A DNA stretch of 39,205 nt. Origin: a virus. Positions 18,670 through 38,237 of the stretch are shown piece by piece. The notes below the pieces were generated by a model. That model saw only the letters and a program-made list of their open reading frames with translations, had not been told where the DNA came from and searched no databases. The position numbers were made by a program, and so were the translations under genes. Position 1 is the first letter of the stretch; each line of letters starts with the position of its first letter. The stretch covers positions 1 to 39,205 of IMG/VR virus record IMGVR_UViG_3300021363_000011; one strand, written 5' to 3'.

Positions 18670-18674
18670 GGGGG

Positions 18675-19209: not shown

Positions 19210-19227
19210 CCCGTCCACAGCAGCCAC

Positions 19228-19547: not shown

Positions 19548-19575
19548 CAGCCGAGCCCCGATCCGGCCGCCGCAG

Positions 19576-19905
19576 TCACGGTGTCCAGTCCTCACCCATC
19601 GCGGCCCGGTGGCCGTCGCCAGCGGCGAACGCGTCCGTGGCGTCGGGGAACCGGTCCGACTCCCACCGGCCACACGAGCATGATGCGGTGTACACGACCG
19701 GCTCACCGGCGAAGGGGCGGTCCGTGCGGACAGCGGTCGAATGCCCGCGGCCCTCCAAATGCGCCGCACCCGCGCCGCACGCCGCGTAATAGCCGTCGAC
19801 CGGGCCGGACACCCACCCGCACCGGCACGACGTCTCGTACGTGAACTCGCCGCCCGCGTCGGTCGTGCCGTGGGTCTCGACGTAATGCCGCGTCACAGTG
19901 CTCAC
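19576..19905 (-). CDS. small protein with two CxCG zinc-like repeats
   Basis: A 109-residue protein from GTG 19905 (GGGAGGGC ahead, GTGA overlap upstream). Two similar units, TSCRCGWVSGPVDGYYAACG with a later His and ASCSCGRWESDRFPDATDA with a later His, suggest a duplicated CxC...H metal-binding motif. The role is unknown. Confidence 0.65.
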   Translation of the reverse strand: MSTVTRHYVETHGTTDAGGEFTYETSCRCGWVSGPVDGYYAACGAGAAHLEGRGHSTAVRTDRPFAGEPVVYTASCSCGRWESDRFPDATDAFAAGDGHRAAMGEDWTP

Positions 19906-20312
19906 GACTGCCCTCCCTCGTCGGGCAGACGAAGCACCTCGATAGGGCGCCCCCACCAATTCGTGTTCGCGTCTTCGCCGTGACCGTCAGAGCTGTACTC
20001 AGCCCAGCCAGTCGCGGTGCGTACACCGACATCTCCTGCGCAGTCGATGATGAGCGCACCCACGGGCAGACCGGCCAGGCGAGGGCGGTCCTCTTCCGCC
20101 TCGATGACGTCACCAACCTTCAGCGGCGGCGGGGGCGGATCAATACGGATCAGTACGGCGTCAACAGGCAGCACGAGACTGGTGGCGCCCATGCCCACTA
20201 TGTGCCTGGTGCCGACCACGTGGCCGCCAGTGGCGTTGTAGCCCAGTGTCACGCCCGCGTACGTGGCTGTGAACTCGACGCGCACCCGGTCGCCGGGCTT
20301 CAACTCGGTCAT
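19902..20312 (-). CDS. hypothetical SH3-like protein, paralogue of 20874-21332
   Basis: A 136-residue protein from ATG 20312 (GGAGGTCG ahead). The beginning (ELKPGDRVRVEFTATYAGV) and LKVGDVIEAEEDRP look like small SH3-type barrels. The C-terminal WGRPIEVLRLPDEGG closely parallels SLPVKVLRMPDDGG at the end of the 152-residue protein upstream, so the two are likely duplicated paralogues. Confidence 0.65.
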   Translation of the reverse strand: MTELKPGDRVRVEFTATYAGVTLGYNATGGHVVGTRHIVGMGATSLVLPVDAVLIRIDPPPPPLKVGDVIEAEEDRPRLAGLPVGALIIDCAGDVGVRTATGWAEYSSDGHGEDANTNWWGRPIEVLRLPDEGGQS

Positions 20313-20605
20313 GATTCGACCTCCATAGCGCAGCACTTGCCGACCGCGCCTTCGAGACGCTGCGACCACGCCGCCAACCCGCCGTCACGGATCGGCCCCT
20401 CGCACGCCGCGCACACCCCCCGCTCGACGGGCAGCCACGCCACCTTCGTCGGGGCCGGGTCGTCATCGATCAGCCGCACCGTCGGCTCGTCGGCGTCGAG
20501 GCCCACCTCGTCGGACAGGCCCCGACAGATCGAGCATGTCGACCGGCCGTCGAGGACCTCCATGTCGTGCCGACATCGCGACGCCAACGTCTCTGTCCCG
20601 TTCAT
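20309..20605 (-). CDS. small protein with CxxC pairs
   Basis: A 98-residue protein from ATG 20605. The pairs CSIC (near residue 25) and CAAC (near residue 67), plus a final CC, suggest metal binding. A His (RCRHDME) precedes the first pair. It is co-translated with its neighbours through ATGA overlaps. Confidence 0.65.
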   Translation of the reverse strand: MNGTETLASRCRHDMEVLDGRSTCSICRGLSDEVGLDADEPTVRLIDDDPAPTKVAWLPVERGVCAACEGPIRDGGLAAWSQRLEGAVGKCCAMEVES

Positions 20606-20877
20606 GACCGCCCTCCCTCGCCGGTGTGCCGCGCCGCCATGTGCTGCGGCAGGTCGACACCTTCGTGCGCCCACCGGCCACACAGCGGGCATCGCACCGC
20701 ATGCCAGCCGGCCGTGCCTGCGGCATGCCGGGCGACGTGACGACGAACGCCGCGCACACCCATCTCGATTGATCTGTGCCGCCCGACATACACCGTCGTA
20801 CGGTCCGGGTCGGTGTCGCCCCAACGGACCTGCCCCATCGGGATCACCGTCGTGGGTGCCTCATCCACCGTGATCAC
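20602..20877 (-). CDS. small C2H2-like zinc protein
   Basis: A 91-residue protein from GTG 20877 (GTGA overlap). The C-terminal region reads CPLCGRWAHEGVDLPQHMAA followed by RH, a C-x2-C-x12-H-x4-H arrangement of a C2H2 finger. A nucleic-acid-binding role is possible. It lies in a run of tiny Cys-containing genes. Confidence 0.65.
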   Translation of the reverse strand: MITVDEAPTTVIPMGQVRWGDTDPDRTTVYVGRHRSIEMGVRGVRRHVARHAAGTAGWHAVRCPLCGRWAHEGVDLPQHMAARHTGEGGRS

Positions 20878-21332
20878 GGCGTGCCACCGCCTATACCCCC
20901 GTCATCAGGCATGCGCAGAACCTTGACCGGCAGAGACACCCACCCATAGCCGACATCACGTGCCGTACCCGGCCACAGTTCGATGCGGACCCGTCGACCC
21001 GCCTGCACCTCCACGACATGGCTTTCCCTGTCCACAAGCAGTGTGCCGGGCTGCAGAAGGTCCAGCCCCCACCGCTTCGTGATGACGTCACCTACCGTCG
21101 GCATCTCATCCTCGACCAGGTCGGTCTGCGCCGTGTTTCCAGTGGGCCGGCTGATTACCTCGACAGGCATGTCGAGGTAGCTGAGCGGCCGATGCCTGCC
21201 GCCCGAGTGAGCCATCCGAACGCCGGCCTCTACCGTCCCGATATCGCCGCAGGCGTCTCTCACCACAGCGCCCAGCGGCAACGCCTCCAACCCGGCCAGA
21301 TCGTAGATGAAATCACCCGGTTCGCTGGTCAT
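20874..21332 (-). CDS. hypothetical protein, paralogue of 19902-20312
   Basis: A 152-residue protein. The region with VVEVQAGRRVRIELWPGTA and the C-terminal VKVLRMPDDGG are shared in style with the 136-residue neighbour. The first part (LEALPLGAVVRDACGDIGTV) is a small beta domain. The function is unknown. Confidence 0.65.
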   Translation of the reverse strand: MTSEPGDFIYDLAGLEALPLGAVVRDACGDIGTVEAGVRMAHSGGRHRPLSYLDMPVEVISRPTGNTAQTDLVEDEMPTVGDVITKRWGLDLLQPGTLLVDRESHVVEVQAGRRVRIELWPGTARDVGYGWVSLPVKVLRMPDDGGIGGGTP

Positions 21333-21505
21333 CGGTGGTCCCGGACAGCGAGCTGGTAACCGGCGACCACAGCCCCGCCGATAATCACCATGAGGAAATA
21401 GGGAGGGGACGCCGCTGCGAGTACGGCGGTGAATCCGACGATGAACAGCGCCGCGAGGAACGTTGCGGGTGCCCAGTTGGTGCGGTGGTTCTGCCTGATG
21501 CTCAT
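21329..21505 (-). CDS. two-helix membrane protein, leaderless start
   Basis: A 58-residue protein. It has two hydrophobic segments (ATFLAALFIVGFTAVLAAA and YFLMVIIGGAVVAGYQLAV) and a short basic end. Its promoter (21513-21540) ends 7 nt before ATG 21505, so the transcript probably starts at the start codon. It overlaps the next gene by TGA/ATG. Confidence 0.65.
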   Translation of the reverse strand: MSIRQNHRTNWAPATFLAALFIVGFTAVLAAASPPYFLMVIIGGAVVAGYQLAVRDHR

Positions 21506-21512
21506 GCCTGCA

Positions 21513-21540
21513 ATCCTACAGGTTCTTGCCGCCTCGTCAA
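21513..21540 (-). promoter_or_regulatory. promoter of leaderless type
   Basis: -35 TTGACG, 16-nt spacer, -10 TAGGAT. The spacer contains GGCAAGAAC, also present in the cas12m promoter at 25712-25741. The start codon of the next gene falls where transcription should begin. Confidence 0.75.
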
Positions 21541-21544
21541 GGTA

Positions 21545-21826
21545 CTAGAAGCCGAGACCACCCGACACCGCAAGCCACGTCACGCCACCATCAACCGTCG
21601 TCAACCGCACCACATCCGTCTTCGCCGCCACCACCGACAACGTCGGCACACCCACCGTGCCCCACCGCACCGACCCGGGCCACGTCACCAGACGTGCCCC
21701 CGTCGCGTCCTGCACCAGATACACCGTGAGCTGACGGAACAGCCCCGACGCCGGGCTAGTCAACGTCACCACAACCGGGGACCCCGTCAAAGTCAACTTC
21801 TGCGCCGGACCGTTCACCGCCAGCAT
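21545..21826 (-). CDS. orphan tail-like beta domain protein
   Basis: A 93-residue protein. The sequence FRQLTVYLVQDATGARLVTW and the final TTVDGGVTWLAVSGGLGF match a short beta-sandwich seen at the C-terminus of phage tail and fibre proteins. The start ATG 21826 directly abuts a CRISPR-like repeat (21827-21854), with no clear ribosome site. GTG 21814 is an alternative start. It may be a displaced tail fragment downstream of terL. Confidence 0.55.
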   Translation of the reverse strand: MLAVNGPAQKLTLTGSPVVVTLTSPASGLFRQLTVYLVQDATGARLVTWPGSVRWGTVGVPTLSVVAAKTDVVRLTTVDGGVTWLAVSGGLGF

Positions 21827-21854
21827 GTCGCCGGTACGAAGCCCCGACGCTGGC
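21827..21854 (-). repeat. solo CRISPR-like hairpin repeat (copy B)
   Basis: Minus-strand stem GTCGG, loop GGCTTCGTA, stem CCGGC, then GAC, after which the ATG of the 93-residue gene follows at once. The 84 nt between this repeat and the terL stop (21855-21938) contain a 12-bp palindrome CCGTCCGGACGG at 21879 and a CCCGC/GCGGG hairpin at 21911-21925 that may end terL transcription. Confidence 0.75.
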
Positions 21855-21938
21855 CATGTCGTAGGCCCGGCTCACCGACCGTCCGGACGGCTGCCGGGGT
21901 TCCTTCCCGCCCGCTCAACGCGGGGGGCATCGCTGAGT

Positions 21939-23444
21939 CTACCCGAACCGTGCACCGGGGCGCGACCCGCCGAGAGCGCCCCCGATCCCGGACGGCAACG
22001 CCACCGCCGGTCTGCCGAGGATTTGCGCTTTCGCGACGGGGTGTCCGAGCAGCCTGTCCACAGCCTGCGTCAACGTGTCCACCCTGTCATCGTTCGCGCT
22101 GTTCGGGAAAACAGCGCATTCCTCTATCAAACCCTCCGTGTACGACGCGGCAGCGGGGAGCCACACGTTCCCGCCTTCCACGTACGGCAGCACCGCGACC
22201 GCGCGGGCGTACTTGCCGTCTCGCGGGTTGACCGGAATGAACCCGGGGATTTCGCGGCGGAGGTAGTCGATCACGGCGGCGCCGTTCGCTTTCTCCTCCA
22301 CCACCTTGCCTGCGGCCTGCGGCCATTCAGCGGTGAGCCGGCGCACCGCGTCGACGGTGGCGACGAACCCGAGCCGGGCATGCACCTGATCCAGCAAATA
22401 GACGTCAGTACCCCACCTGCCCCACACCTGACCGCACACGAAGTCGGACGCTTTGGTGTCTTTGAATGCCATGTCCCAGGATTGGATGATCTCGTCTGCG
22501 CCTGCGGCCCACATGGTGCCGTCGTCGCGGCGGACCGCTCTCGGCGTGTCGTAGAGGCGCCAAAACTGCCGCTTCAACAGGGCACCTTCGGCGGGTGCGG
22601 GACGGCCCTGATACAGCGACCCGAACGTGCGGGGTGATGTTCGGCGAATGTCCTCCCAGTCCGGTATGCGGTTCCCTCGCGCTGACTGCATCCATTCCCC
22701 GGGTTCACGACCCAGCGGATCGGTTTCGCCTTTCTCTGGCCGGTGGTCGGCTAGGGCCGGGATGTTCAGGACATCCCATGTGTTGCTTTCGCGGTCGATC
22801 AGCCGGCCTGCCAGGTCGTCTGTGTGCCACCGTGTTTGTATGAGCACGACCCATGCGGCGATGGAGAACCGGGTTTTGGCTACGTCGGTCCACCAGTCCC
22901 AGACGGTGTTGCGGTAGGCAAGGGAATCGGCTTGATGCCGGTCTTTCACTGGGTCGTCTATTATGAGCCCGTCCACCCGGCGGCTGGTCAACGCCCCTCC
23001 GATACCGACCGAGTACATGCCGCCGTCAGATCTGTCTAGCACCCACTCGTTCGCTGCTGACGTGTCATCGCGGACCCTGAGCCCCAACTCAGGATGCCCC
23101 TTGATGTCGTTGCGGACCGCGCGGCCCCACCTGATAGCTGTGCGGGCCTCGTAAGAGGCGACAGCAAGCTGAATGTCAGGGTTCCGGATCAGCGCCCACA
23201 GAGGGAACGCCCGGGACGCTCGCTGGCTTTTACCTTCCTGCGGGCTGATTGAGATGATCAGGCGTTTAGGGCCGGCGCCGTTGAACATCGCGACCAGTTT
23301 CCGGTCGATTAGTTCCAGCGCGGGCGTTTGTTTCACGCCGGGGTCGAGTGCCTGCGCCAACGCCCCCGGTGTCGCCGCGTCCTTGACCGCGACCCGGTTG
23401 CCTTCCAGCTCGGACGCGGCCAGCTCCCACACCGAGGCTCCCAT
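21939..23444 (-). CDS. terL: terminase large subunit
   Basis: A 501-residue protein with ATPase and nuclease domains. The Walker A-like ISISPQEGKSQ lies near residue 65-75, Walker B GLIIDDPVK near 160, and the coupling segment VLIQTRWHTDDLAGR near 205. Nuclease acidic motifs follow: SWDMAFKDTKASDF, VVEEKANG, and NDDRVDTLTQAV near the end. It packages DNA through the portal. It is isolated from the portal by small genes and is followed in coordinates by the cas12m block. No separate small terminase is adjacent. Confidence 0.93.
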   Translation of the reverse strand: MGASVWELAASELEGNRVAVKDAATPGALAQALDPGVKQTPALELIDRKLVAMFNGAGPKRLIISISPQEGKSQRASRAFPLWALIRNPDIQLAVASYEARTAIRWGRAVRNDIKGHPELGLRVRDDTSAANEWVLDRSDGGMYSVGIGGALTSRRVDGLIIDDPVKDRHQADSLAYRNTVWDWWTDVAKTRFSIAAWVVLIQTRWHTDDLAGRLIDRESNTWDVLNIPALADHRPEKGETDPLGREPGEWMQSARGNRIPDWEDIRRTSPRTFGSLYQGRPAPAEGALLKRQFWRLYDTPRAVRRDDGTMWAAGADEIIQSWDMAFKDTKASDFVCGQVWGRWGTDVYLLDQVHARLGFVATVDAVRRLTAEWPQAAGKVVEEKANGAAVIDYLRREIPGFIPVNPRDGKYARAVAVLPYVEGGNVWLPAAASYTEGLIEECAVFPNSANDDRVDTLTQAVDRLLGHPVAKAQILGRPAVALPSGIGGALGGSRPGARFG

Positions 23445-23460
23445 ACCGCATCACCCCACT

Positions 23461-23800
23461 TCGTTGCCTACGATGCCGGTGCGCTGGCATATCTGATTAC
23501 CGCATCTGGCCCGCGCTCGGGCCGGGTCGTGCCTACGATGCCGGCACGCAGGCCGCATCATCAGTCACCACGCGTCGCCGGTATGAAGCCCCCGCGCTGG
23601 CATGGACCGCCCGGTGCCCCTTCGGTGACGTCGCCAGTATGAAGCCCTGACGTCGGCAAGAACCCTTGCAGTTTACCGTACCGTCAAGCTCCCGTCGCCA
23701 CCCGCCGCCGCGCTCGCTGTATCAGCGTCGCCCACACGACCCGGGAAGGAGTGCCGAATTTGTATATCACGCGTCGCCCGTATGAACCCCGGACGCTGGG
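23461..23800 (-). CRISPR. degenerate CRISPR-like array between cas12m and terL
   Basis: Five minus-strand copies of the hairpin repeat start (plus coordinates) at 23461 (C, degraded, stem lost), 23526 (D, stem GTGCC/GGCAC), 23574 (E, one stem mismatch), 23630 (F, GTCAG/CTGGC) and 23773 (G, GTCCG/CGGGC). G is identical over the core and its 5' flank TTTGATGT to copy J upstream of cas12m. A possible remnant starts at 23727. Spacing is 48-65 except for one 143-nt gap. That gap holds a TTGACG at 23682-23687 and GCAAG/CTTGC, resembling the cas12m promoter but with a poor -10. Copy C forms the leader of terL. No gene occupies 23445-23846. Confidence 0.72.
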
Positions 23801-23846
23801 CACATCAAACAGGTTCCCAGCCCACGGCCTCGGTCCGGGTCAGCCA

Positions 23847-25667
23847 TCACGCCGTCAACCTACCCGCCGCAGACGCGGCACCAAGCATCAACACCGTAGC
23901 CGAATAGTCCTGATCGTAAACCTCGCCGCACCCGTCACACGGCACCGCCGCCGCCGCCCCGTACCTGTCATCGACCGGGTTCACATGCCCGCACCGCGCA
24001 TGTGTGCGGGTCAAACCGGCATGGGACACGACAGTGACAGTGACACCTTCCCGTGCCGCAGCCGCCCGCACAGCGTCACGTAGACCGCCTGGTGCCGCAT
24101 CGACACGTTGCCGCCCAGGCACAGCCGCCACAGCCGCAGGCACCGACGACTCGTCCGGGTCGCTACGCCTGGCCACCGCAGCCAGATCGGTGTCGTCTAA
24201 AACCAGCTCACCTGCCATGCCCGCAACCCACGCGGCGAACCGTCGCCACGCGTCGTCGCGGCGGCCGATGGTCTTGTCGCGGCCGTGGGCCTGCGTCTCC
24301 CACACCCGTCTGTCCGATCGGCGCCACGCCTCCACATCAGCGAGCAGCCCCGTCATGTGCTCGTCCATCGGGCGGCCTTCGTGGAGGGTGGCCCACCTGC
24401 GGGCCATGCCGACGAGACGCCCCGGGGAACGCCACCGCGCCACATCCCCGCCGGCCACCTGGTAGTCGACGCCGGCGTGGTCCTGTTCGATCGGCGCGTC
24501 ATGCTCACCCAACCAGCCGACCACCCGGGCCTTGACCTGCTCAAACGCGACATCGCGGCTCGACTGCACCACGGCCGGTCGGGCAGCATCGTCACGCCAC
24601 CGCGCAGGCAACACCACCGTGCCGGACCTGTCCGTGTTCACCCGAACAACATCCCGCAACGTGTCCGGCACGTCGACCGGGGAATCGGCCCGCCACACAG
24701 CAACCCGCACAGCACCAGCACCGTCCAAACGTCGCCACCCCACATGCACCGCCACCTGCGGACCGCCGAACACAGGCGACGGATCAGCCACGCGGGCCGT
24801 GACCGACAGCGTGACCCGCTGCCCCCCTGCGACACGACGCACCACCAGTTGCGCCCCGGTGATATCCGCGTCGGCCGGTAGCATGCGATGCACGATCACC
24901 GGCAGCTCGGCATGCCGGCCGGCTCCGTAAGCCCACAGAGCGACTCCACGCCCCGCGCGGCGCTGGTCCGCCCGCGACATGCTGGTGAACACGACAGGGT
25001 CGGTCCACGGCAGGCGGAACGTGTTCCGCCACTTCCCCGCACCTTCGCTGATCACGTCGGGTGACCTCGGCGGGTCCGCAGCCAAGCGCTGCAACTGCAC
25101 CGTCAGACGACCGGAACCGTCCCACCTGTGATGCCGCAACTCAGCCGGCCTACCAGCCTTCCGGGCAGCGAACACCCTGCTCACCGCGACACGATGCCGG
25201 TCAGTAACGTCGTTCCATGTCGCCCAATACAGGCCACGGGTTTGCACGTAGTCGGCGTAGGTGGCTTTCACAGCCGCCCGGTGCCCGGCGATGACGGCCT
25301 GCTCAGCCGTTTCCGCTGCCACGCTGATCGCGGCCACAGCGGCCTTCCGGGCGGTGCGTGCCGCCTTCACCTCGGCGCGTGCCGCCATGAGTGCGGCGCT
25401 GGACGCGACGGTCCGCGACCGCGACTGTCTGCGTTCCACCGCAACGGCCTCGACCAGACGGACAGCGTCCGCCTCAGCGGCGGCAAGAACCTCCTCAGCG
25501 GCAGCGACCTGCGGGTACGCCGACCACACCGCCCGGACAGCTGCCTCGCGGGCGTGTTCCAACGTGACGAGATCCTCGCGGAGGTCATGGGCCATGCGGA
25601 GCTGTTCCCGCAAACCGTCCGGCAACACGACCCGGGAAGGGGTGCCGAACTTGTACACGGTGATCAT
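23847..25667 (-). CDS. cas12m: Cas12m (type V-M, formerly V-U1) RNA-guided DNA-binding effector
   Basis: A 606-residue protein, close to the ~596 residues of the characterised Cas12m. The start ATG 25667 gives an N-terminus (MITVYKFGTPSRVVLP, then LRMAHDLREDLVTLE) that aligns with remembered Mycolicibacterium Cas12m. Residues ~35-140 are helical. RHHRWDGSGRLTVQLQR is near 178 and HRMLPADADITGAQLVV near 260. RuvC-I reads VAVHVGWR (His308 where active nucleases have Asp), RuvC-II LVLDDTD (~488), then a zinc ribbon (Cys559, Cys577, Cys580) and RuvC-III YDQD (~584-587). Known Cas12m processes crRNA and binds but does not cut DNA, blocking transcription. The altered RuvC-I here agrees. Repeats flank the gene on both sides. 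Confidence 0.93.
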   Translation of the reverse strand: MITVYKFGTPSRVVLPDGLREQLRMAHDLREDLVTLEHAREAAVRAVWSAYPQVAAAEEVLAAAEADAVRLVEAVAVERRQSRSRTVASSAALMAARAEVKAARTARKAAVAAISVAAETAEQAVIAGHRAAVKATYADYVQTRGLYWATWNDVTDRHRVAVSRVFAARKAGRPAELRHHRWDGSGRLTVQLQRLAADPPRSPDVISEGAGKWRNTFRLPWTDPVVFTSMSRADQRRAGRGVALWAYGAGRHAELPVIVHRMLPADADITGAQLVVRRVAGGQRVTLSVTARVADPSPVFGGPQVAVHVGWRRLDGAGAVRVAVWRADSPVDVPDTLRDVVRVNTDRSGTVVLPARWRDDAARPAVVQSSRDVAFEQVKARVVGWLGEHDAPIEQDHAGVDYQVAGGDVARWRSPGRLVGMARRWATLHEGRPMDEHMTGLLADVEAWRRSDRRVWETQAHGRDKTIGRRDDAWRRFAAWVAGMAGELVLDDTDLAAVARRSDPDESSVPAAVAAVPGRQRVDAAPGGLRDAVRAAAAREGVTVTVVSHAGLTRTHARCGHVNPVDDRYGAAAAVPCDGCGEVYDQDYSATVLMLGAASAAGRLTA

Positions 25668-25705
25668 GTCGTGGAGCCGAGCTGCTGCCTGGCGTTCATG
25701 TTCAT
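25664..25705 (-). CDS. 13-codon leader peptide overlapping cas12m start
   Basis: An ORF reading M-N-M-N-A-R-Q-Q-L-G-S-T-T ends at a TGA that overlaps the cas12m start (ATGA). Its ATG at 25705 stands about 7 nt past the -10 box, so the message is probably leaderless and translation of cas12m coupled to this ORF. No ribosome site precedes the cas12m ATG itself. Only the junction and spacing are seen; function as a leader is inferred. Confidence 0.5.
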   Translation of the reverse strand: MNMNARQQLGSTT

Positions 25706-25711
25706 AACTCC

Positions 25712-25741
25712 ACCATAAACCAGTTCTTGCCATACCGTCAA
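25712..25741 (-). promoter_or_regulatory. cas12m promoter
   Basis: -35 TTGACG, 18-nt spacer, -10 TATGGT (or TTATGG at 17 nt). The spacer contains GGCAAGAACTGG, shared with the promoter at 21513-21540. It starts within the presumed spacer of repeat H, so array and gene control regions meet here. Confidence 0.75.
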
Positions 25742-25756
25742 GACCAATCACACCGC

Positions 25757-26166
25757 GTCGTCGGTACGAAGCCCCGACGCTGGCCACCCCACCCAACCAC
25801 TCAGCTAGTCGCTGGTACGAGGCCCCAGCGCCGGCCCGTCCCACGGCGCCGAGCTGGAGGTCGCCCGTATGAACCCCGGACGCTGGGCACATCAAAGCCC
25901 CGTGGTGCCTACCCGGCCAGGCCGGACAGCGGACCGTTTCCACGGGGCGATACCACAGCGTATACACGTTGCGCTTGTCTCGCCGATACCAAGCCCCGGC
26001 ACCGAATGATGCGCATCATCAGAGTCGCCCACACGATGCCTGGACGCGGGCGTTAAGCTTCCTACCGGATCACGATTCGCTTGTCGCCGGTACGAAGCCC
26101 CGACGCAGGCAGCCGCGCACCGTGCAGGGCTGCGCCGAGTCGCGGATATGACGCCTCCGCGCTGGC
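25757..26166 (-). CRISPR. degenerate CRISPR-like array upstream of cas12m
   Basis: Seven minus-strand hairpin repeats start at 25757 (H, stem GTCGG/CCGAC), 25808 (I, GCTGG/CCAGC), 25860 (J, GTCCG/CGGGC), 25979 (K, GCCGG/TCGGC), 26024 (L, GTCCA/TGGGC), 26083 (M, GTCGG/CCGGC) and 26139 (N, GCGGA/TCCGC). A doubtful remnant is at 25902. Each core is 28 nt with a 9-nt loop near GGCTTCGTA, a 5' GC and a 3' GAC. Spacings are 45-59, leaving 17-31 nt of unique sequence. If the repeat is 36 nt as in known Cas12m arrays, spacers are about 15-23 nt. Stem changes are compensated, so the hairpin is under selection although copies differ. No protein gene is supported in 25706-26198. Confidence 0.78.
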
Positions 26167-26169
26167 GGA

Positions 26170-26184
26170 ACCCGCTTAGCGGGT
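26170..26184. terminator. short hairpin at array edge
   Basis: ACCCGC and GCGGGT form a 6-bp stem with a 3-nt loop between the end of the 137-residue gene and repeat N. It may stop or attenuate the upstream transcript, or be a weak structure only. No T-run. Confidence 0.4.
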
Positions 26185-26198
26185 ACTTCGCTCAGTGA

Positions 26199-26612
26199 TT
26201 AGCCGAGATCCTCGGTACGCGCTGAATGTAGTCGCCAAGGACGGCCAGGATTTTCTGATCCGTCATTCATGGTACCCCATTCCCAGGGCAAGTGTCTACC
26301 CTCAGGTTCCGCTATCACAGCCGCGTCGTCGCCGCGCGCGATACGGTCAACCGCCGCCGCATGCCGTTCCCACGCGTCATGCCGTTCCCACGCGTCAGCA
26401 GCAGCGATAAAAACCTCACCCACCGCCCGCGCGTCCGGGCCGGGCATGTCTGCGCGCATACGGCCGTCAGGCCCGATCACCTGCACCCTGATCACGAGCA
26501 TGCCGTCGCTGTCACGTCTCAGAACGCTGCCCGACCAGTGGACAGCGCCGACCGAGCCGTCACGGATGACGTCCGGTTTACGGCGGGAGAACCACGACCG
26601 CCACGCCCTCAT
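26199..26612 (-). CDS. hypothetical protein with DAWERH tandem
   Basis: A 137-residue protein from ATG 26612 in ATGA overlap with a 23-codon ORF. The N-terminus is basic and aromatic (MRAWRSWFSRRKPDVIRDGS), the centre beta-rich (MLVIRVQVIGPDGRMRADMP), and DAWERH is repeated in tandem (an 18-nt direct duplication, CGTGGGAACGGCATGACG-like, at about 26365-26400). Not recognised. It is the last gene before the repeat array. Confidence 0.6.
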   Translation of the reverse strand: MRAWRSWFSRRKPDVIRDGSVGAVHWSGSVLRRDSDGMLVIRVQVIGPDGRMRADMPGPDARAVGEVFIAAADAWERHDAWERHAAAVDRIARGDDAAVIAEPEGRHLPWEWGTMNDGSENPGRPWRLHSARTEDLG

Positions 26613-26680
26613 CGGTGAGCTCGAACATGGCCCGGCTCGACCGGGGTTTCGGCCGGCCATACCGGCTTGGTGACATCCAT
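26609..26680 (-). CDS. 23-residue ORF upstream of 26199-26612
   Basis: The ATG at 26680 follows GGAGAATAGGT, a good ribosome site, and the TGA overlaps the next start (ATGA). The next gene has no good site of its own, so this short ORF may act by translational coupling, as for cas12m. The peptide is Pro/Val-rich and not recognised. Confidence 0.5.
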   Translation of the reverse strand: MDVTKPVWPAETPVEPGHVRAHR

Positions 26681-26703
26681 ACCTATTCTCCGGACCGTTC
26701 TTT

Positions 26704-27357
26704 CTACAGTGCCGGCACTTCCGGCACCGAATGCTGCCGCATCATCAAACCCTCGATCTGCCACTGCGTCGCCGGTCGCAACCCCCACGCATCCACCCCC
26801 ACATGCACCTGCCGGCCGTCCGTGACCTGCACCGCCGAATGGGTGTGTCCGTGCAGCAACCAACCCCCCAGGTCGGGTAGCCGCCACTGCGCCGCCGTAT
26901 CCACAGCATGCCCCTCAGCCGCATGGCGGCCGTCCTGCGCATACGGGAAGTGGGACAGCAGCACCGGACCCGTCACCTGCTGACCGTCCACCCGCAGCGT
27001 CGACATGCGGAGCCGCGCGAACGGCTGCACCGACGCGAACACCGACAGGTACCGGGCCTGCCATTTCCACGCCCCCCGGTGCATCGGATGTACCGGGTCG
27101 TGGTTGCCGGCCACGAGATGCTTAGCCCCGGGAAGCGCCCCGATTTGGTCGAGGACCGTGTCCACCCCGCCCGACGAGGACGTGACAGCGACGTCGCCGA
27201 GGACCCACACAGTGTCTTCCGGTCGCACCACCAGTGCCCATGCGGCAGCTATCGCTGCGTCGTGTGCTGCGGTGTCGTCGCCGAAACCGCGTAGCTCTGC
27301 GACGAGTCTGTGCCCGAGGTGCAGGTCAGATGTGAACCATGTCGTACCCATGCGCAT
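26704..27357 (-). CDS. metallophosphoesterase
   Basis: A 217-residue protein with the complete calcineurin-like set: DLHLGH (near residue 10), GDVA (54), GNHD (84), a His in LLSHFPY (~134) and HGHTHS (~170). Two metal ions would be bound and a phosphoester hydrolysed; phage members are common, substrate unknown. Start at 27357 or at the second ATG 27351. Its last ~15 codons (plus 26721-26749) contain a copy of the 5' part of the CRISPR-like repeat (CCGGCACCGAATG shared with copy K), so the C-terminus derives partly from repeat DNA. Confidence 0.88.
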   Translation of the reverse strand: MRMGTTWFTSDLHLGHRLVAELRGFGDDTAAHDAAIAAAWALVVRPEDTVWVLGDVAVTSSSGGVDTVLDQIGALPGAKHLVAGNHDPVHPMHRGAWKWQARYLSVFASVQPFARLRMSTLRVDGQQVTGPVLLSHFPYAQDGRHAAEGHAVDTAAQWRLPDLGGWLLHGHTHSAVQVTDGRQVHVGVDAWGLRPATQWQIEGLMMRQHSVPEVPAL

Positions 27358-27376
27358 CTGCTCTCATGGCTTTGCT

Positions 27377-27404
27377 GTCGCCCCTATGAGCCCGGGACGC
27401 TAGG
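27377..27404 (-). repeat. solo CRISPR-like hairpin repeat (copy O)
   Basis: Minus-strand stem GTCCC, loop GGGCTCATA, stem GGGGC, then GAC. Its first bases are the TAG stop of lsr2, and 19 nt later comes the start of the metallophosphoesterase. The repeat thus fills the whole gap, and its would-be spacer runs into that gene's ribosome site and start codon. Confidence 0.72.
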
Positions 27405-28550: not shown

Positions 28551-28735
28551 CAGTACCGGATGACAGTGACCGCGTTGTCGTAGAGGATGTCGTCCGTAGT
28601 CCACGGCACTCGGTTCAACGCATAGTCCTCGGGAGCATCCACGACCACTAAACGGGTCTGGCTCACGTAGTTGTCCGGAGCACCACCCATTGCCTGATCC
28701 AGTTCGTATGCGGTGACGTTGGTAGTGATGATCAT
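28550..28735 (-). CDS. hypothetical protein behind conserved promoter
   Basis: A 61-residue protein from ATG 28735, about 40 nt downstream of promoter copy 2 with GGAGACGA ahead. Acidic, beta-strand-rich (IITTNVTAYELDQAMG; TRLVVVDAPEDYALNR). Not recognised. It is the first gene of the small operon that follows the type IV-B block. Confidence 0.6.
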   Translation of the reverse strand: MIITTNVTAYELDQAMGGAPDNYVSQTRLVVVDAPEDYALNRVPWTTDDILYDNAVTVIRY

Positions 28736-29478
28736 GTCTTCGTCTCCGATCCGTTCGTCTGCCTGACCCCACCCACTTTACTCTCCGCCGTTGGCATGTC
28801 AAGCGGTGGCGGGTAATACCTGTCCTCCCACGCCTGCCGCCCCTGCATCGCGCCAAGCGACGTCCCCAAATGATGCACACGAACCGTGTCACGAGGCCAC
28901 GCCCCACCACCCGTCATCGCATACGCCGGATGCACCGGCAAACCATGCACATACAGATACGCGAACACATCCGCCGTAGACCACCGGAGAATAGGGCGAC
29001 ACGTCCGCGCCGTAGCCACCCCATGCACACGCGCGGACGTATCCCGGACACCGGACTCGGCGGCGCGGACCCCCGTCACGCGACGGCCGAAACCAGGCAA
29101 CACTGTGGGGATGAGCGCGAGCTGATCGGACACCGGGTCAGGCACCCACAGCTCCACATACCGGGCCGGATGATCACGCAAGTAGATGTCGCGGACGAGG
29201 GCTGAGTCAGGATCAGGGCGCCGCCCAGGGTGGGTGGTGTGCAAATGCAGCAGCGGCAGACCCAAGCCGTGGGCGAGGTGCGCCACCACAACAGAGTCCT
29301 TACCCCACGACGTGGACAGGTAGCAGCCGCCGGCTGCGGCGAACTCCTCCACAGACCTGCGGGCGCGGGCGGCCATACCGGGCAGGTCCCGGATACGGGC
29401 GTGTAGCGCGTCGGTCTGCTCGGCTGCATCCCACGCGGCCAAGTCGGCGGCGGTATGGGAGCGGCTAGGCAGCAGCAT
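28732..29478 (-). CDS. cysH: CysH-like PAPS-reductase-family protein of type IV-B CRISPR loci
   Basis: A 248-residue protein. The PP-loop YLSTSWGKDSVVVAHLAHG (~residue 53), LHLHTTHPGR, TGVRAAESGVR and the TCRPILRWSTADVFAYLYVHG block are those of the phosphoadenosine phosphosulfate reductase family. The C-terminal catalytic Cys motif of true CysH (ECGLH) is absent. CysH-like proteins are a recognised companion of type IV-B loci with unknown role. It overlaps csf3 by 14 nt. Its last ~23 residues (from PLDMPTAESK) are encoded by a copy of the phage promoter, and its TGA overlaps the next start. Confidence 0.87.
   Translation of the reverse strand: MLLPSRSHTAADLAAWDAAEQTDALHARIRDLPGMAARARRSVEEFAAAGGCYLSTSWGKDSVVVAHLAHGLGLPLLHLHTTHPGRRPDPDSALVRDIYLRDHPARYVELWVPDPVSDQLALIPTVLPGFGRRVTGVRAAESGVRDTSARVHGVATARTCRPILRWSTADVFAYLYVHGLPVHPAYAMTGGGAWPRDTVRVHHLGTSLGAMQGRQAWEDRYYPPPLDMPTAESKVGGVRQTNGSETKT
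28775..28802 (-). promoter_or_regulatory. promoter, conserved phage family (copy 2), inside cysH 3' end
   Basis: -35 TTGACA, 16-nt spacer, -10 TAAAGT, then GGGTCAGGCAGAC. About 56 nt around it are identical to copy 4 at 37497-37524. It lies within the last codons of cysH and drives the 61-residue gene and those behind it. Confidence 0.85.
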
Positions 29479-30214
29479 CGGCAGGTGCCACCACCCACGG
29501 GGCGATCACCGGCCGCAACGGTCGGGACGCCGTATGCCCGTCGAACGTCGGCCGCCAGTACGGCGGCCGGTATGTCCATCCGATCGTGTCGACCGCGCAG
29601 AGGTTGAGGGTGCGGGCTGCTGCTTGCGGGAGCGGACGGGCCGGGAACCCGGCCGTGGTCCATACGATCCGGTCACGGTCGGGCGGTCCGTGGTCGACCA
29701 CTTCCCATCCTGTGACGACCCCTTCGCCTTGGCCGCGTCTGCGGCCCACTTGGCTCACGCCGGTCAGGATGTCGCGTATCCCGTCCGGGTCGCCGCACGC
29801 CCACCACTCCGCCCGGTCGGCGAGCGTGACCACGGTCGGGGACCGCCACGGCTTGAACCGGCCCGTATCGGTCGACGCCGGTAACGCGTCTACGACACGT
29901 TCAGCAGGCACTGTGTCGAACCGTTGATGCCACCAGCGGATGTCCGTGCCGGCGATGCCGGGGAACGCGGCGCAGGTAGCGGCCCACACCCAGGGTCCTT
30001 TCAGCGGCAGCAACGCCAACGGCAACGGCTGGACGTGATGGTCCACGAGTCGCCCGTAGGAGCCTGCGAGACGGTCCCGCCGCGCGGCTGCCGCTAGCAC
30101 CCCGTCGAGCGGTATCGGGAACTGGTCGGTGGTGACCACGCCGTGCGGGAACCGGGCTGTGACATGCATCAGCCGGGCCTGCCCCCATCGGGCAGAGTCC
30201 GGGCTGTGGCTCAC
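29465..30214 (-). CDS. csf3: Csf3 (Cas5-like) subunit of type IV-B effector
   Basis: A 249-residue RAMP protein. GTG 30214 overlaps the csf2 stop (GTGA); ATG 30169 is an alternative. The N-terminus has the RAMP beta strand (MHVTARFPHGVVTTDQFPIP), a central TGRFKPWRSP, and the Gly-rich loop LTGVSQVGRRRGQGEGVV near residue 175, typical of Cas5/Csf3. In type IV complexes Csf3 caps the 5' end of the guide RNA. Identification rests on these features and on its canonical place between csf2 and cysH. Confidence 0.83.
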   Translation of the reverse strand: MSHSPDSARWGQARLMHVTARFPHGVVTTDQFPIPLDGVLAAAARRDRLAGSYGRLVDHHVQPLPLALLPLKGPWVWAATCAAFPGIAGTDIRWWHQRFDTVPAERVVDALPASTDTGRFKPWRSPTVVTLADRAEWWACGDPDGIRDILTGVSQVGRRRGQGEGVVTGWEVVDHGPPDRDRIVWTTAGFPARPLPQAAARTLNLCAVDTIGWTYRPPYWRPTFDGHTASRPLRPVIAPWVVAPADAAA

Positions 30215-31197
30215 GCGAACCAGCCCAACGCATCCAAAATGTCGGCCTGGTTGTCTCGGACATGCGCGGTGAACAGGTCCGTGGTTCCGCCGCCGGACAA
30301 CGCGGCGAGCGCTGTGCCGGCTGTTGTCACCGGGGTTTGGTGCTGCCACTGATGCACGTCCAGCCGTAGCCGGCCGTGGCCGGTCGCGGAACGGCCGCCG
30401 ATGTGAGCGCCGTCCGTGATCCACGCGTCCAACGCGGCGGCGAGCATGCCCGTCTCGACGGGAGTGACATGCCGTAGCTGCATCCACCAATGCAGCCGGG
30501 TTCCGGCCGCGAGAGTTTCGACGCCGTACCGCATCTGCTGCGCCGGTCCGTCGCGGAGGTCATCCTCGACGGCTTTCGCCGGGGCGTCGACGGTGAGTAA
30601 CTCCCCCTGTGTCGGTGCCAGTTCCTTCGCGGCCGTGAACCCTGCGATAGCGGGGTGGAGCTGCTCACGTTTGGAATCGTCGCGGCGGGTGAACTCCTCG
30701 ACCTGGATCAGATCCCACACCGACGGCAACGCGGCATCTGCGAAGCCGTCGGGCAGCAGATGCGCTGTCTCTTCACATGCCGGCACCAGTTTCCCCACCG
30801 ACAGTTTCCCTTCCATGATCTTCCCGGCGCCGGAGCCGCCGAACAGCGACACCACCGGGACGAGCGCGCGGACCTGCGCAAGCTGTCTGGCGCCCAGCGA
30901 TTTACCCCCGCCCGTTTTGGTGAGCGCACCACCGGACCACAGCAGGTGGAATACCGGGGCCGGCAGTTCCGGGGAGCCGAGAGCACGCCAAAACGTGTGC
31001 GCGGCGTGGTCGCGGAGGATGCCCCGTAACGCATTCCCCGACACCACCGGCACGTCCGACACCCCGTCCGGGGTGAGGATTTTCTCTCGCCGCAGGTAGG
31101 AGACAGTGCCCCCGGACTCGCCGATGTGCGACAGCGACGACAACAGCGTCGCAGCCCCTTCGATACGGTATGACGCTGTCTCCAGCACACCAGTCAT
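30211..31197 (-). CDS. csf2: Csf2 (Cas7-like) backbone subunit of type IV-B effector
   Basis: A 328-residue protein. The opening SYRIEGAATLLSSLSHIGES is a RAMP strand with the conserved H-I-G, followed by LRREKILTP, DVPVVSGNALRGILRDHAAH (Cas7 signature SGNALRG) and FGGSGAGKIMEGKLSVGKLV near residue 130. The end contains GGRSATGHGRLRLDV. Csf2 forms the helical filament along the guide RNA. Start ATG 31197 (AAGGAACG ahead) overlaps cas11 by ATGA. This is the best-conserved member of the operon. Confidence 0.9.
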   Translation of the reverse strand: MTGVLETASYRIEGAATLLSSLSHIGESGGTVSYLRREKILTPDGVSDVPVVSGNALRGILRDHAAHTFWRALGSPELPAPVFHLLWSGGALTKTGGGKSLGARQLAQVRALVPVVSLFGGSGAGKIMEGKLSVGKLVPACEETAHLLPDGFADAALPSVWDLIQVEEFTRRDDSKREQLHPAIAGFTAAKELAPTQGELLTVDAPAKAVEDDLRDGPAQQMRYGVETLAAGTRLHWWMQLRHVTPVETGMLAAALDAWITDGAHIGGRSATGHGRLRLDVHQWQHQTPVTTAGTALAALSGGGTTDLFTAHVRDNQADILDALGWFA

Positions 31198-31610
31198 AGC
31201 GTTCCTTCCGTTCCGGTCTCGGTTGCCTGGTTGCGGTGACGGTGGAACGCGACACGGACACGCAGACATAACGCCTCAGCGGAGCTGCGCATAGCGCCCA
31301 GGACCGCCTGGTCGTCACCGCACGCCAGCGCCAACGCCAACGCCGCACGGTCGTCGGGGTCACGTGGCTGCCCGCATCCCAGAGCACGGGTCATCGACAT
31401 CCACCATCCGTCCAACGACCGTGACGAGTAGGTGCCTCCGCGTACCTTGTCCGGGAGCCGGTCCCAGTAGGTGAGGGCACGGTCCCCACCCCATGTCGCC
31501 CGGTCGCGGCTTTGGTGCGCCACCCCGATCAGCAGCTCAGCGCATTCACGCGCCGGATCGACCCGGCCTATCTCGTCACGTGCCTCGATGAGCACGTCGG
31601 CGACGCTCAC
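31194..31610 (-). CDS. cas11: Cas11-like small subunit of type IV-B effector
   Basis: A 138-residue, largely helical protein. GTG 31610 is chosen because it overlaps the csf1 stop (GTGTGA) with AAGGAG ahead. The helical sequence ADVLIEARDEIGRVDPAREC and a later SAEALCLRVRVAFHRHR fit small-subunit length and composition. Type IV-B loci carry such a gene between csf1 and csf2. There is little sequence conservation, so the call is mainly positional. Confidence 0.72.
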   Translation of the reverse strand: MSVADVLIEARDEIGRVDPARECAELLIGVAHQSRDRATWGGDRALTYWDRLPDKVRGGTYSSRSLDGWWMSMTRALGCGQPRDPDDRAALALALACGDDQAVLGAMRSSAEALCLRVRVAFHRHRNQATETGTEGTL

Positions 31611-32287
31611 ACGGTCTCCTTCGGTACGCGGGTAGCCCTTGCGGCCACATCCAGATACGGCGGCACACGCCGCCACGGGTCCAACTCCGGCCACACAGCC
31701 AGCAGCGTGCGCTGCCCCGCATGAGGGAGCCTGGTCAAGATCGGCCAACGCGGCGCCGGCTCAGCGATCGCGGCCTCGCCGAATCCTGCCGCCCGCACCT
31801 CCCGGTACATGGCCAGCCTGTCCACGTCGGCGGTAGTCCACGGCAGACGCCCGTGGTCGGTTATCAACGCGCCCGGTGCCGCCCACGGCAGCAGATGCTT
31901 CTGCCCCGACACAGGTACGGTCACGAACCCGGCATCGGCCGGTAACGTCATCAACGCCGCCAGCAGCCCTGCGGGGGACAGTTCCGCCCACTGTCCCCGG
32001 ATCAAAGCGTGGGGTCGTTGCATCGCCGTGCGATGCCTAAACGCCCAAGCCGCGACCCGACCGAAACCCGCCCCGGCAGCGCCGCGATGCGGCAACAGAT
32101 CCCATCCGGTGAACAGCTCGGACACGACATGCCGCGTGTCCACGACATCGCCGTAGACGCCAGTGAGCGCGCACACCCCGGTCCGCCACGGCGGTGCAGC
32201 ACGGGGATGGACAGCTTTGCCCTGCCAGTTCGGTTCAGGGCGTCCCGCCGCATGCCACGCAGCAGCGAGAACACCACCCTCCGTCAT
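31607..32287 (-). CDS. csf1: Csf1 (Cas8-like) large subunit of type IV-B effector
   Basis: A 226-residue protein, of Csf1 length. TGVCALTGVYGDVVDTRHVV followed by SELFTGWDLLPHRG corresponds to the Csf1 zinc-finger region and its F-T-x-W-D block, but only one Cys remains here, so zinc binding may be lost. The rest contains LAALMTLPADAGFVTVPVSG near residue 115. It is first in the operon, with AGGTGAGG near the start, and divergent from the RHH gene. In type IV complexes Csf1 sits at the 5' end of the RNA. Confidence 0.8.
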   Translation of the reverse strand: MTEGGVLAAAWHAAGRPEPNWQGKAVHPRAAPPWRTGVCALTGVYGDVVDTRHVVSELFTGWDLLPHRGAAGAGFGRVAAWAFRHRTAMQRPHALIRGQWAELSPAGLLAALMTLPADAGFVTVPVSGQKHLLPWAAPGALITDHGRLPWTTADVDRLAMYREVRAAGFGEAAIAEPAPRWPILTRLPHAGQRTLLAVWPELDPWRRVPPYLDVAARATRVPKETV

Positions 32288-32326: not shown

Positions 32327-32340
32327 CTATGATACCATAG
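32327..32340. promoter_or_regulatory. inverted-repeat operator between csf1 and RHH gene
   Basis: CTATG, 4-nt spacer ATAC, CATAG lies 5 nt before the RHH start codon. It overlaps TATGAT, a -10 candidate for the RHH gene (near-leaderless start), and TATCAT, a -10 candidate for csf1 on the other strand. It is a likely operator for control of both by the RHH protein; this is inference. Confidence 0.55.
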
Positions 32341-32344
32341 ACAT

Positions 32345-32551
32345 ATGAGCGACGAGGACACCCAGCAAGTAGCAGTCCGATTCCCCACCCACCTACTCGA
32401 AGCAATGGACGCCCGAGCAGCCGCCACCGGCCGATCCCGCCACGCCTGGATCATCCAAGCCATCAGCTACATCCTCACCGAACTACCCGCCGGAGCAACC
32501 ACCGAACAACGCCGCAACGCCCGCGCCGCATGGGACGACCAACAGCTCTAA
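32345..32551 (+). CDS. ribbon-helix-helix DNA-binding protein
   Basis: A 68-residue protein. The RHH pattern QQVAVRFPTHLLEAMDARAA, then TGRSRHAWIIQAISYIL, has the basic strand followed by two helices of CopG/Arc-type regulators. It is transcribed divergently from the type IV-B operon and next to two sets of palindromes, so it is a candidate repressor of csf1-cysH or a partition-type DNA binder. Confidence 0.82.
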   Translation: MSDEDTQQVAVRFPTHLLEAMDARAAATGRSRHAWIIQAISYILTELPAGATTEQRRNARAAWDDQQL

Positions 32552-32565
32552 CCCGCCACCGTCCC

Positions 32566-32649
32566 GTGATATCACCCTCTGATATCACCGGACGGTTTGA
32601 TATCACTTCCGGCCGCGAAAGTGATATCACCGACGGCCGGTGATATCAC
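32566..32649. repeat. five GTGATATCAC palindromes
   Basis: TGATATCAC occurs at 32567, 32580, 32598, 32622 and 32641. Three copies are the full 10-bp palindrome GTGATATCAC. A perfect inverted repeat CCGGCCG / CGGCCGG (32609 and 32634) flanks the fourth. The block fills the space between two convergent genes and the last copy contains the stop of the HTH gene. Protein-binding iterons are likely; they may bind the RHH protein or mark a replication or partition site. Confidence 0.75.
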
Positions 32650-33599
32650 CCCTGCTCAGCGCCGACAGCCCTCAACGTCCGCCCCACCACAGCCCAACGC
32701 TCCGGCGTCATCTCCACCCCCATATCCCGCAACGCCGACCTCAACACCTCAGCGATCACCGACGCCTGCCCCTCAGCGACCCTCACCAAACGCTCAGCCA
32801 CCCCGGCATCGATCGCGGCCTTAGAACACGCGACCAGATGTTTCCGCTCCAGCAGATAGACGCGGAGCCACCCCAACACCTCCGACTCGGCGACGACGAC
32901 GGAGGATGTGACGTCGGACCAGACTTGCTGGTTCAGCTCCGGGAGGCCCGTGTTTTCGGCGATCCGTGCTCGGACAGGTTCCGTGATACCGGAGAGGTCC
33001 CATGCCTGGATGCGTTCCTGGAGCCAGCGGACGATGCCGGCGGAGCGGCGAACTTCTTCGAGGAGGGCTTCCTCTGGGGTGATGGTGGGGAGGTCGATTT
33101 GGTAGAAGAGGGCTTGGCGTCGGCGGTCTTGTACGAGGTCGAGCATGCGGAGGGTGGCGGCGTGTTTGCGGCTGTTGGTGTTGCTGCCGTGGTGTTTGGA
33201 GCAGTGGCCGTAGCCGGGGTGGTCGGTTTTGTGGCCGGCTGGTAGGTGGCAGGTGCGGTTTTGGGTGCGGTATCCGCATGTTCCGGGGAGGGGTTTTATG
33301 TCGGGGTGTTCGGGTTTGTAGTTTCGTAGGGGTTGTGTTGGTTGTTCGTTTGCGAGTCTTTCCGTGAGTGTGTGGTCATCGGTGATCATTTGGTGTCGTG
33401 TGTTTACGGGGTGGTCGGTGAGGGTTTCGAGGTGTTGGGCGAGGTTGTGGAGGCGGTGTAGGTATCGGGGGCGGGGGTGGACGTCGCCGAGGTAGGTGCT
33501 GAGTGTTTGGGGGGAGATGCCGGTGGTGGTGGCGAGGTCGCGCCAGGACAGTCCTGATTGTTCGCGTATCCACAGCACCAGGTCGGAGGTGGTTGTCAT
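32646..33599 (-). CDS. HTH protein with small-terminase-like C-terminal region
   Basis: A 317-residue protein. Residues 1-60 are an XRE-like helix-turn-helix (LVLWIREQSGLSWRDLATTT, ISPQTLSTYLGDV). Residues ~95-125 carry a Cys/His motif (GTCGYRTQNRTCHLPAGH then YGHCSKHH). From ~165 the sequence EEVRRSAGIVRWLQERIQAW, ERKHLVACSKAAIDAGVAER and VRVAEGQASVIAEVLRSAL resembles actinophage small terminase or terminase-associated proteins. It may recognise the packaging site or regulate genes. Codon composition is uneven: the N-terminal half is unusually A/C-rich. Confidence 0.62.
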   Translation of the reverse strand: MTTTSDLVLWIREQSGLSWRDLATTTGISPQTLSTYLGDVHPRPRYLHRLHNLAQHLETLTDHPVNTRHQMITDDHTLTERLANEQPTQPLRNYKPEHPDIKPLPGTCGYRTQNRTCHLPAGHKTDHPGYGHCSKHHGSNTNSRKHAATLRMLDLVQDRRRQALFYQIDLPTITPEEALLEEVRRSAGIVRWLQERIQAWDLSGITEPVRARIAENTGLPELNQQVWSDVTSSVVVAESEVLGWLRVYLLERKHLVACSKAAIDAGVAERLVRVAEGQASVIAEVLRSALRDMGVEMTPERWAVVGRTLRAVGAEQG

Positions 33600-34189
33600 G
33601 GGTGTTGCTCCTGGTTGGGGACGTGTTCTCGCAAAGCCGCCGCTATGGCGCGGGCAACGGCGACCGATGCGGCATGATCCATTTCGACCCAGCCGCCCAC
33701 GTCCCACAACACCCGCCTGATCAATTCGAGCGTGACGTCGTCGGTGGTGTCCACCCGGACGATGCTCGCCACACGGTCGGCGCCCGGGTCGGTGATCTCG
33801 GCGAGCCGGCGACGGGCAGCCGTGGCTTCGTGCACAGCGACCGTCAGCCCATCGATCTCGTCGTTGGAGCGGATGAACCGGATGTCGATGCCGAGCATTA
33901 CGGCGATCTTCGCCGCGTTCGGTCTGGGCAAACGCACGATCGCGGCCTGATGCGGCTTCAACACCGGGTTCACCTCGCCCAGGTCGACATCGAACCCGGC
34001 CGACCGGCCGTCCTGGTCGGGGGATGCGGCGCGACGGGCAGCCGTGGCCTCGTGCACAGCGACCGCCAGGTCGTGCTCGGTACGTTCCAGCTCGGCCTGT
34101 AGTTCACCGTGCGTCCAGTCGTCATACGGTGAAGCGTCGCCGTCGTCGTAGGGCGCTTCGAAGGTCGAGTCGTAGTAGTCGTAAGTCAT
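33596..34189 (-). CDS. hypothetical protein with internal duplication
   Basis: A 197-residue acidic protein starting YDYYDSTFEAPYDDGDASPY. The segment AVHEATAARR occurs twice (~residues 42 and 116), and the DNA of both is nearly identical, so part of the gene duplicated recently. The middle has IRFIRSNDEIDGL. Not recognised. ATGA overlaps on both sides. Confidence 0.65.
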   Translation of the reverse strand: MTYDYYDSTFEAPYDDGDASPYDDWTHGELQAELERTEHDLAVAVHEATAARRAASPDQDGRSAGFDVDLGEVNPVLKPHQAAIVRLPRPNAAKIAVMLGIDIRFIRSNDEIDGLTVAVHEATAARRRLAEITDPGADRVASIVRVDTTDDVTLELIRRVLWDVGGWVEMDHAASVAVARAIAAALREHVPNQEQHP

Positions 34190-37242: not shown

Positions 37243-37270
37243 ACTTTCGTTTGCCTGCCTGACACCCTCA

Positions 37271-37298
37271 ACGATACACCCCACGGGCGGCACGTCAA
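37271..37298 (-). promoter_or_regulatory. promoter, conserved phage family (copy 3)
   Basis: -35 TTGACG, 16-nt spacer, -10 TATCGT, then GTGTCAGGCAGGC. The spacer is identical to copy 1 (TGCCGCCCGTGGGGTG). It drives the leftward small-gene operon. Confidence 0.85.
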
Positions 37299-37336
37299 GT
37301 GACGAGTGACGCGGTCATGCAGCAGACGTACCTGGA

Positions 37337-37364
37337 GTCGCGGATACGTCGCCTCCGCGCTGGC
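37337..37364 (-). repeat. solo CRISPR-like hairpin repeat (copy P)
   Basis: Minus-strand stem GCGGA, loop GGCGACGTA, stem TCCGC (perfect), then GAC. It stands between the 13-bp hairpin at 37379 and promoter copy 3, over 11 kb from cas12m. It is closest to array copy N. About 38 nt of unique sequence separate it from the promoter, enough for one spacer. Confidence 0.72.
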
Positions 37365-37412: not shown

Positions 37413-37496
37413 TTACGAGACGGTGCTCTAGCCGGATCGGAGGTACGGCGAGCTGCTGCCTCACCACCCACTCTACATGATCATGACCGCCACCGC

Positions 37497-37524
37497 TTGA
37501 CATGCCAACGGCGGAGAGTAAAGT
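37497..37524 (+). promoter_or_regulatory. promoter, conserved phage family (copy 4)
   Basis: -35 TTGACA, 16-nt spacer, -10 TAAAGT, GGGTCAGGCAGAC, then ATCGGAGAA-type ribosome site. Identical to copy 2 for about 56 nt. It drives the rightward operon from 37564. Confidence 0.87.
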
Positions 37525-37563
37525 GGGTGGGGTCAGGCAGACACACGGATCGGAGAAACGAAG

Positions 37564-38163: not shown

Positions 38164-38169
38164 GCCCAC

Positions 38170-38197
38170 TTGACGTCACTCCTGTGGAGTGTATAGT
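38170..38197 (+). promoter_or_regulatory. promoter, conserved phage family (copy 5)
   Basis: -35 TTGACG, 16-nt spacer, -10 TATAGT, then GCGTCAGGCAGAC and ATCGGAGAA. It begins 6 nt past the previous stop and drives the 109-residue gene. Confidence 0.85.
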
Positions 38198-38237
38198 CAT
38201 GGGCGTCAGGCAGACACGGAAGCATCGGAGAACCCCA

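Follow-up and report, generated by a model that had tools for sequence, protein, structure and literature searches.

A small ribbon-helix-helix (RHH) gene lies divergent from a phage type IV-B csf operon, and immediately behind it stands an array of five TGATATCAC palindromes that occupies a single locus in the contig and that recurs, physically paired with RHH genes, in other phages. We consider it fairly probable that the product of this phage gene regulates its own transcription as a member of the Arc/MetJ class, that TGATATCA represents its binding sites, and that it sits beside, and possibly controls, the type IV-B module.

A type IV-B module and an RHH gene on a phage contig

The window analyzed here is an entire IMG/VR virus record of 39,205 bases, which is linear and hence possibly a fragment. 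This GC-rich contig encodes a tape measure protein and a terminase and is therefore a tailed phage; its host is probably actinobacterial, judging from its nearest csf2, that of Skermania phage SPI1. The csf1 gene (type IV large subunit; 31607 to 32287, minus strand; PADLOC Csf1 E value of 4e-37) is the first gene of a csf1-cas11-csf2-csf3-cysH run that is divergent from the RHH gene. Beyond csf1, PADLOC returned Cas11 (2e-20), Csf2 (5e-70), and Csf3 (7e-35), and a PAPS_reduct match called the cysH-like (PAPS-reductase-like) gene that follows the csf genes; these five genes together make the module type IV-B. Orf40 to Orf44 of SPI1 constitute an unannotated type IV-B module with the same gene order (59% identity in Csf2 and 51% between Csf1 and Orf40).

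The same contig bears both a Cas12u1/V-U1-like effector gene (23847 to 25967, minus strand; PADLOC 7e-151) and the complete csf1-cas11-csf2-csf3-cysH module (28732 to 32287). A CRISPR-like degenerate repeat of 28 nt, GTCGCCGGTACGAAGCCCCGACGCTGGC, is present in 15 copies, all on the plus strand, from 19183 to 27404 and at 37337 to 37364; two clusters (23526 to 23800 and 25757 to 26166), one at each end of the Cas12u1-like gene, hold copies mostly 45 to 59 nt apart, and single copies lie elsewhere in the contig. A further element, marked by TTGAC- and TAnnnT-like boxes plus a common GTCAGGCAGAC-like end, occurs five times (18622 to 18670, 28755 to 28803, 37251 to 37299, 37493 to 37544, and 38166 to 38217) and is probably a phage promoter family. 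In SPI1 (L149), part of the 5' end of csf1 occurs a second time (10152 to 10298; 49 aa, with 73% identity to the csf1 of SPI1 itself), ahead of Orf39 and of the intact gene, an arrangement suggestive of a cassette insertion at this place; a palindrome, GGTGGTACCACC, lies just before Orf39.

The RHH gene (32345 to 32551, plus strand) encodes a protein of 68 aa (MSDEDTQQVAVRFP...), which we assign to the DNA-binding proteins of the Arc/MetJ superfamily because profile matches and a predicted structure agree. The profile matches come from PHROGs (phrog_13890, E value of 7e-6; Arc-like phrog_3178, E value of 4e-5) and from the NCBIfam model YlcI/YnfO (30.7 bits, just over its cutoff of 30); Pfam RHH/Arc models scored under their cutoffs, and the sole sequence match in the PDB was Mnt, at an E value of 0.25. 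The AlphaFold model is confident (pLDDT of 83) and predicts an extended N-terminus followed by helices at residues 15 to 27 and 32 to 46. Its leading Foldseek matches are RHH proteins; the best PDB folds include Arc, CopG, AmrZ, and MazE6, with Arc at the top (1bdv, probability 0.97 to 0.99). Like Arc and Mnt of phage P22, then, this would be a small phage RHH protein with an operator, putative here, at its own promoter; unlike them, it has an array of five palindromes behind its gene, a different operator sequence, and probably an actinobacterial host.

The searches also returned Foldseek matches to antitoxins and weak, sub-cutoff matches to the BrnA, VapB, and RelB-like antitoxin families, as might be expected if the protein were an orphan antitoxin or a toxin-antitoxin autoregulator with TGATATCA operators. 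We judge this very improbable, however, given that the gene is flanked by csf1 and an HTH gene with no toxin gene adjoining, that the gene after RHH in relatives belongs to a family without a PHROG match (L013) or to a run towards structural genes (L057), and that no cognate toxin was seen in the same operon of a relative.

The palindrome array and its pairing with RHH genes

The array spans 32566 to 32650, with TGATATCAC starting at 32567, 32580, 32598, 32622, and 32641, at spacings of 13, 18, 24, and 19 bases. These are the five palindromes that a first-pass annotation of this DNA had described downstream of the RHH gene, and they withstand a statistical treatment. The five copies give 8 pattern matches, since three of the copies extend to the full palindrome GTGATATCAC and are read on both strands, versus 0.05 expected in dinucleotide shuffles of the window; the array is therefore not a product of chance. 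A search across the 39-kb contig, which that annotation had proposed, found exact TGATATCA only in the array copies. The array fills the convergent gap between the RHH gene and an HTH protein gene (32646 to 33707, minus strand; phrog_3678, E value of 5e-16; HTH_31, E value of 3e-5), and its fifth palindrome overlaps the HTH stop codon.

A gap between convergent genes is also where a bidirectional terminator would be placed, in which case tandem hairpins would be the main function of the array and the 10-mer would be stem sequence rather than a protein site. An inverted repeat with 17-nt arms (ACCGTCCCGTGATATCA/TGATATCACCGGACGGT; 32558 to 32596; 94% arm match; RNA fold of −24.6 kcal/mol) encloses palindromes 1 and 2, reaches beyond them, and is possibly a bidirectional hairpin, and the RNA of the whole array folds strongly on both strands (z scores of −7.3 and −6.2 against ordinary shuffles and of −2.2 and −2.5 when the palindromes are held in place during shuffling). 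Strong folding is to be expected of any series of identical palindromes, however; the excess over the fixed-palindrome shuffles is small and is absent in three array-bearing relatives (L013, L021, and L065), a scan for intrinsic terminators (a GC-rich hairpin followed by a T tract) found 0, the hairpin being without a T tract, and relatives retain the same 8-mer where their RHH genes begin, at the 5' ends. We rejected termination as the sole function, which is weak once the palindromes are held fixed, and regard it as unlikely to be the main one; a terminator role may coexist with RHH binding, and it leaves the pairing with RHH genes unexplained.

The identity of the binding protein has to be weighed as well, since the array touches the end of the HTH gene. 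RHH dimers (MetJ, Arc, and CopG among them) read short palindromes via a beta-ribbon, and a site of 8 to 10 bp thus suits an RHH dimer better than one of the HTH type; for a dimer of the lambda-repressor kind, 10 bp with abutting half-sites would be a short palindrome. No homologue of the HTH protein was found in array-bearing loci, and we give scant credence to the HTH protein, in place of the RHH protein, as the ligand. A close precedent for the array itself is provided by the met boxes of MetJ (AGACGTCT), which are arrays of 8-bp palindromes that take one RHH dimer each, as would be expected of the sites described here; the met boxes abut one another, whereas the palindromes of the window are spaced by 13 to 24 bp and the protein lacks a corepressor domain.

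The crucial evidence for the RHH protein is comparative. We scanned IMG/VR for three clustered copies of TGATATCA by DNA pattern alone, with no use of the protein, and obtained 75 stretches. When all the main proteins of the window were compared with these stretches by tblastn, the RHH protein matched at 46% identity in L035/L057/L073 and at 43% in L031/L058, and each of these homologues lies directly at the array. A profile extended the series to RHH genes that abut the array in L029/L037, L013, L011/L042/L070, L021, L065, and L059, with weaker cases in L019/L074, L089, and L095, so that array-abutting RHH genes are found in at least eight distinct lineages. These relatives were reached only by the DNA scan and then by profile: the RHH protein alone as a query gave no matches in viral contigs or in phage or plasmid collections, and a profile search of genome contigs gave none. 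Nine array-adjacent RHH open reading frames (ORFs) were recovered at an E value below 0.02, versus three in a control set of positions five times as large, two of the three being genes already in the array set; arrays from genome contigs entered this count only.

In ten array-RHH records (8 to 83 kb, this contig included), moreover, every exact TGATATCA sits in the RHH-linked array. Confinement to the neighborhood of one small DNA-binding gene fits an autoregulator rather than a genome-wide regulator, a stoperator, or a dispersed repeat, and linkage of short palindromes to the RHH gene across relatives is what an autorepressor would be expected to leave. Binding of the array by the RHH protein is accordingly likely in our reading, with strong support from the recurrent pairing: a scan of DNA alone leads to RHH-abutting arrays, and all copies are at the pair in the ten records. 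The earlier proposal had implied that relatives without the RHH gene should be without the palindromes, and this stands for the homologous group only; TGATATCA clusters are not RHH linked in general, most other loci being AT-rich and unrelated, and a Pfam scan of 115 ORFs beside these other arrays found no further RHH genes and one Rep3.

That Rep3 initiator, adjoining an unrelated array, bears on the suggestion of the first-pass annotation that the repeats recall plasmid partition or replication control, with the RHH protein as a ParB/ParG/omega-like centromere binder and the array as the parS site or iteron cluster of a phage-plasmid. Plasmid partition does employ RHH proteins with repeated short binding sites (omega, ParG, and ParR), omega and ParG have such sites beside their own genes, as is proposed here, and the protein has weak profile likeness to PHROGs labeled partition protein (phrog_795 and phrog_2685). 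The search for a ParA gene came back empty, however: PF13614 (ParA type) was unmatched in all 12 records, the window and 11 related ones, which are fragments, while the control was positive in 14 of 14 well-known genomes. No Rep gene was found among the scanned ORFs, the neighbors of the array are RHH/csf1 and the HTH gene, and the arrays of relatives stand in operator position. A partition or replication site is therefore a reading that we think has very little chance of being correct.

Several features of the related loci deserve mention in their own right. In L057 (466 to 654) and L031 (~5466 to 5628), a second RHH-like gene, without a Pfam match, runs up to the array from its 5' side and stops there, giving the order RHH1-array-RHH2; a counterpart was looked for in the window and was not found. 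In L013, L011, L042, and L029, the gene next after RHH belongs to one common family (...HIHCSSRFDRSAASLDADI...); the L013 member has no PHROG match, and to our eye the family resembles an endonuclease/exonuclease/phosphatase protein. Other short palindromes are scattered in the manner of stoperators or terminators, namely CTAGTTACTAG in L087 (14 sites in 12 kb) and TAGTSSACTA in L035 (15 sites in 13.7 kb).

The candidate operator in the divergent gap

The RHH and csf1 genes are separated by a divergent gap of 57 bp that contains, just as first described, CTATGATACCATAG (32327 to 32340), a putative operator. Within it lies TGATACCA, one of only four 8-mers outside the array, in 39 kb, that fall within one mismatch of TGATATCA; the one-base difference noted earlier between operator and array thus holds. 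The chance of such an 8-mer in the gap is ~0.5% for a random 57-bp window of the contig and 4.7% in shuffles of the AT-rich gap itself, and the likeness is real and moderately significant, suggestive but not decisive. Scored against the palindrome profile of the relatives, the CTATGATACCATAG site is the 15th best 14-mer of the contig, ranks 1 to 5 being the array itself.

The putative operator coincides with sequences that may be read as −10 boxes. TAnnnT hexamers occur in CTATGATACCATAG on the plus strand (TATGAT, 32328 to 32333; TACCAT, 32333 to 32338) and on the minus strand (TATGGT, 32339 to 32334; TATCAT, 32334 to 32329); a two-box sigma-70 promoter scan gave no match. The hexamers of both strands fall within one palindrome, and a dimer bound there could therefore shield both promoters, that of RHH and that of csf1, at once. 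The two closest relatives have a degenerate TGATATC on the putative −10 (TAnnnT) of their RHH gene, which is placed 6 or 7 bases before the ATG (L057, CTATGATATCGGA-ATG; L031, GTGATATCGTTTCTGAT-ATG), as TGATACCA overlaps the putative RHH −10 in the window. These degenerate sites, together with the arrays found beside RHH genes by DNA alone, lend comparative support to the first-pass idea that one protein may bind both kinds of site. The proposed arrangement follows a pattern reported for mycobacterial toxin-antitoxin operators, which are usually centered on the −10 region (PMC9477884). Mycobacterial RHH antitoxins of the MazE6 type share this putative placement of the operator on a TANNNT −10 region (PMC9477884) and differ in having a toxin partner, of which there is none here.

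A proposed autoregulator beside the csf operon

We infer the following mechanism. One RHH dimer would probably occupy each TGATATCA palindrome of 8 to 10 bp, so that the protein would hold the degenerate TGATACCA on the −10 of its own promoter as well as the five strong copies behind its gene, and would thereby occlude the promoter and silence its own transcription, perhaps with the assistance of cooperative contacts or of looping across the 0.2-kb gene. Such autorepression is plausible. Since −10-like hexamers of the csf1 strand likewise lie under the promoter copy, occupancy of that copy may in addition restrain the divergent type IV-B (csf) operon; this control of csf is possible.

Several observations weigh against the autoregulator. 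The array is 5' of the RHH gene or overlaps its start in every relative (the last palindrome of L011 doubles as the coding sequence for the MSDIT start of the RHH protein), and it is 3' in the window, a position that rules out a direct block of the RHH or the csf promoter. As described above, the copy at the promoter ranks only 15th in the contig. The predicted DNA-contact residues of the beta-ribbon vary among the RHH proteins linked to arrays, being Q-A/S-R in most, A-I-R in L011/L042, and R-L-R in L021/L065. Finally, L087, which has a weaker homologue, contains no copy of TGATATCA, its RHH pair being flanked instead by a different near-palindrome of 19 bp. A beta-ribbon specificity code drawn from four proteins (Q-A/S-R with the array and Q-K-R in L087 without it) was discarded, as it fails with L011, L021, and L065.

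The relationship between the regulator and the csf genes can be assessed from their distribution. SPI1 and seven csf2-bearing IMG/VR loci have neither an RHH homologue nor TGATATCA, and csf2 was not convincingly detected in the array-bearing relatives (a single marginal match, of 47 residues, in G005). We therefore rejected the idea that csf modules include the RHH gene and array as conserved components: the regulator does not belong to the type IV-B module, and the two modules are independent and met in this phage. The proposed tie of the repeats to the plasmid ancestry of type IV modules finds no support in the same data. A mobile cassette of the RHH gene and TGATATCA could instead have been placed by the type IV-B module as a dedicated on/off switch, with a shared RHH/csf1 operator and the downstream array as a looping silencer or buffer; we advance this arrangement tentatively and regard it as rather doubtful.

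If true, the cassette switch would be the first regulator proposed for a type IV-B system. Within the library searched, we found no paper that combines TGATATCA with ribbon-helix-helix. More broadly, the pairing of array and RHH gene connects one particular operator sequence with a family of small regulators encoded by phages, mostly without an assigned function, and provides a directly testable pair of protein and site. In this contig, it also offers a testable handle on the timing of expression of a phage type IV-B csf operon.
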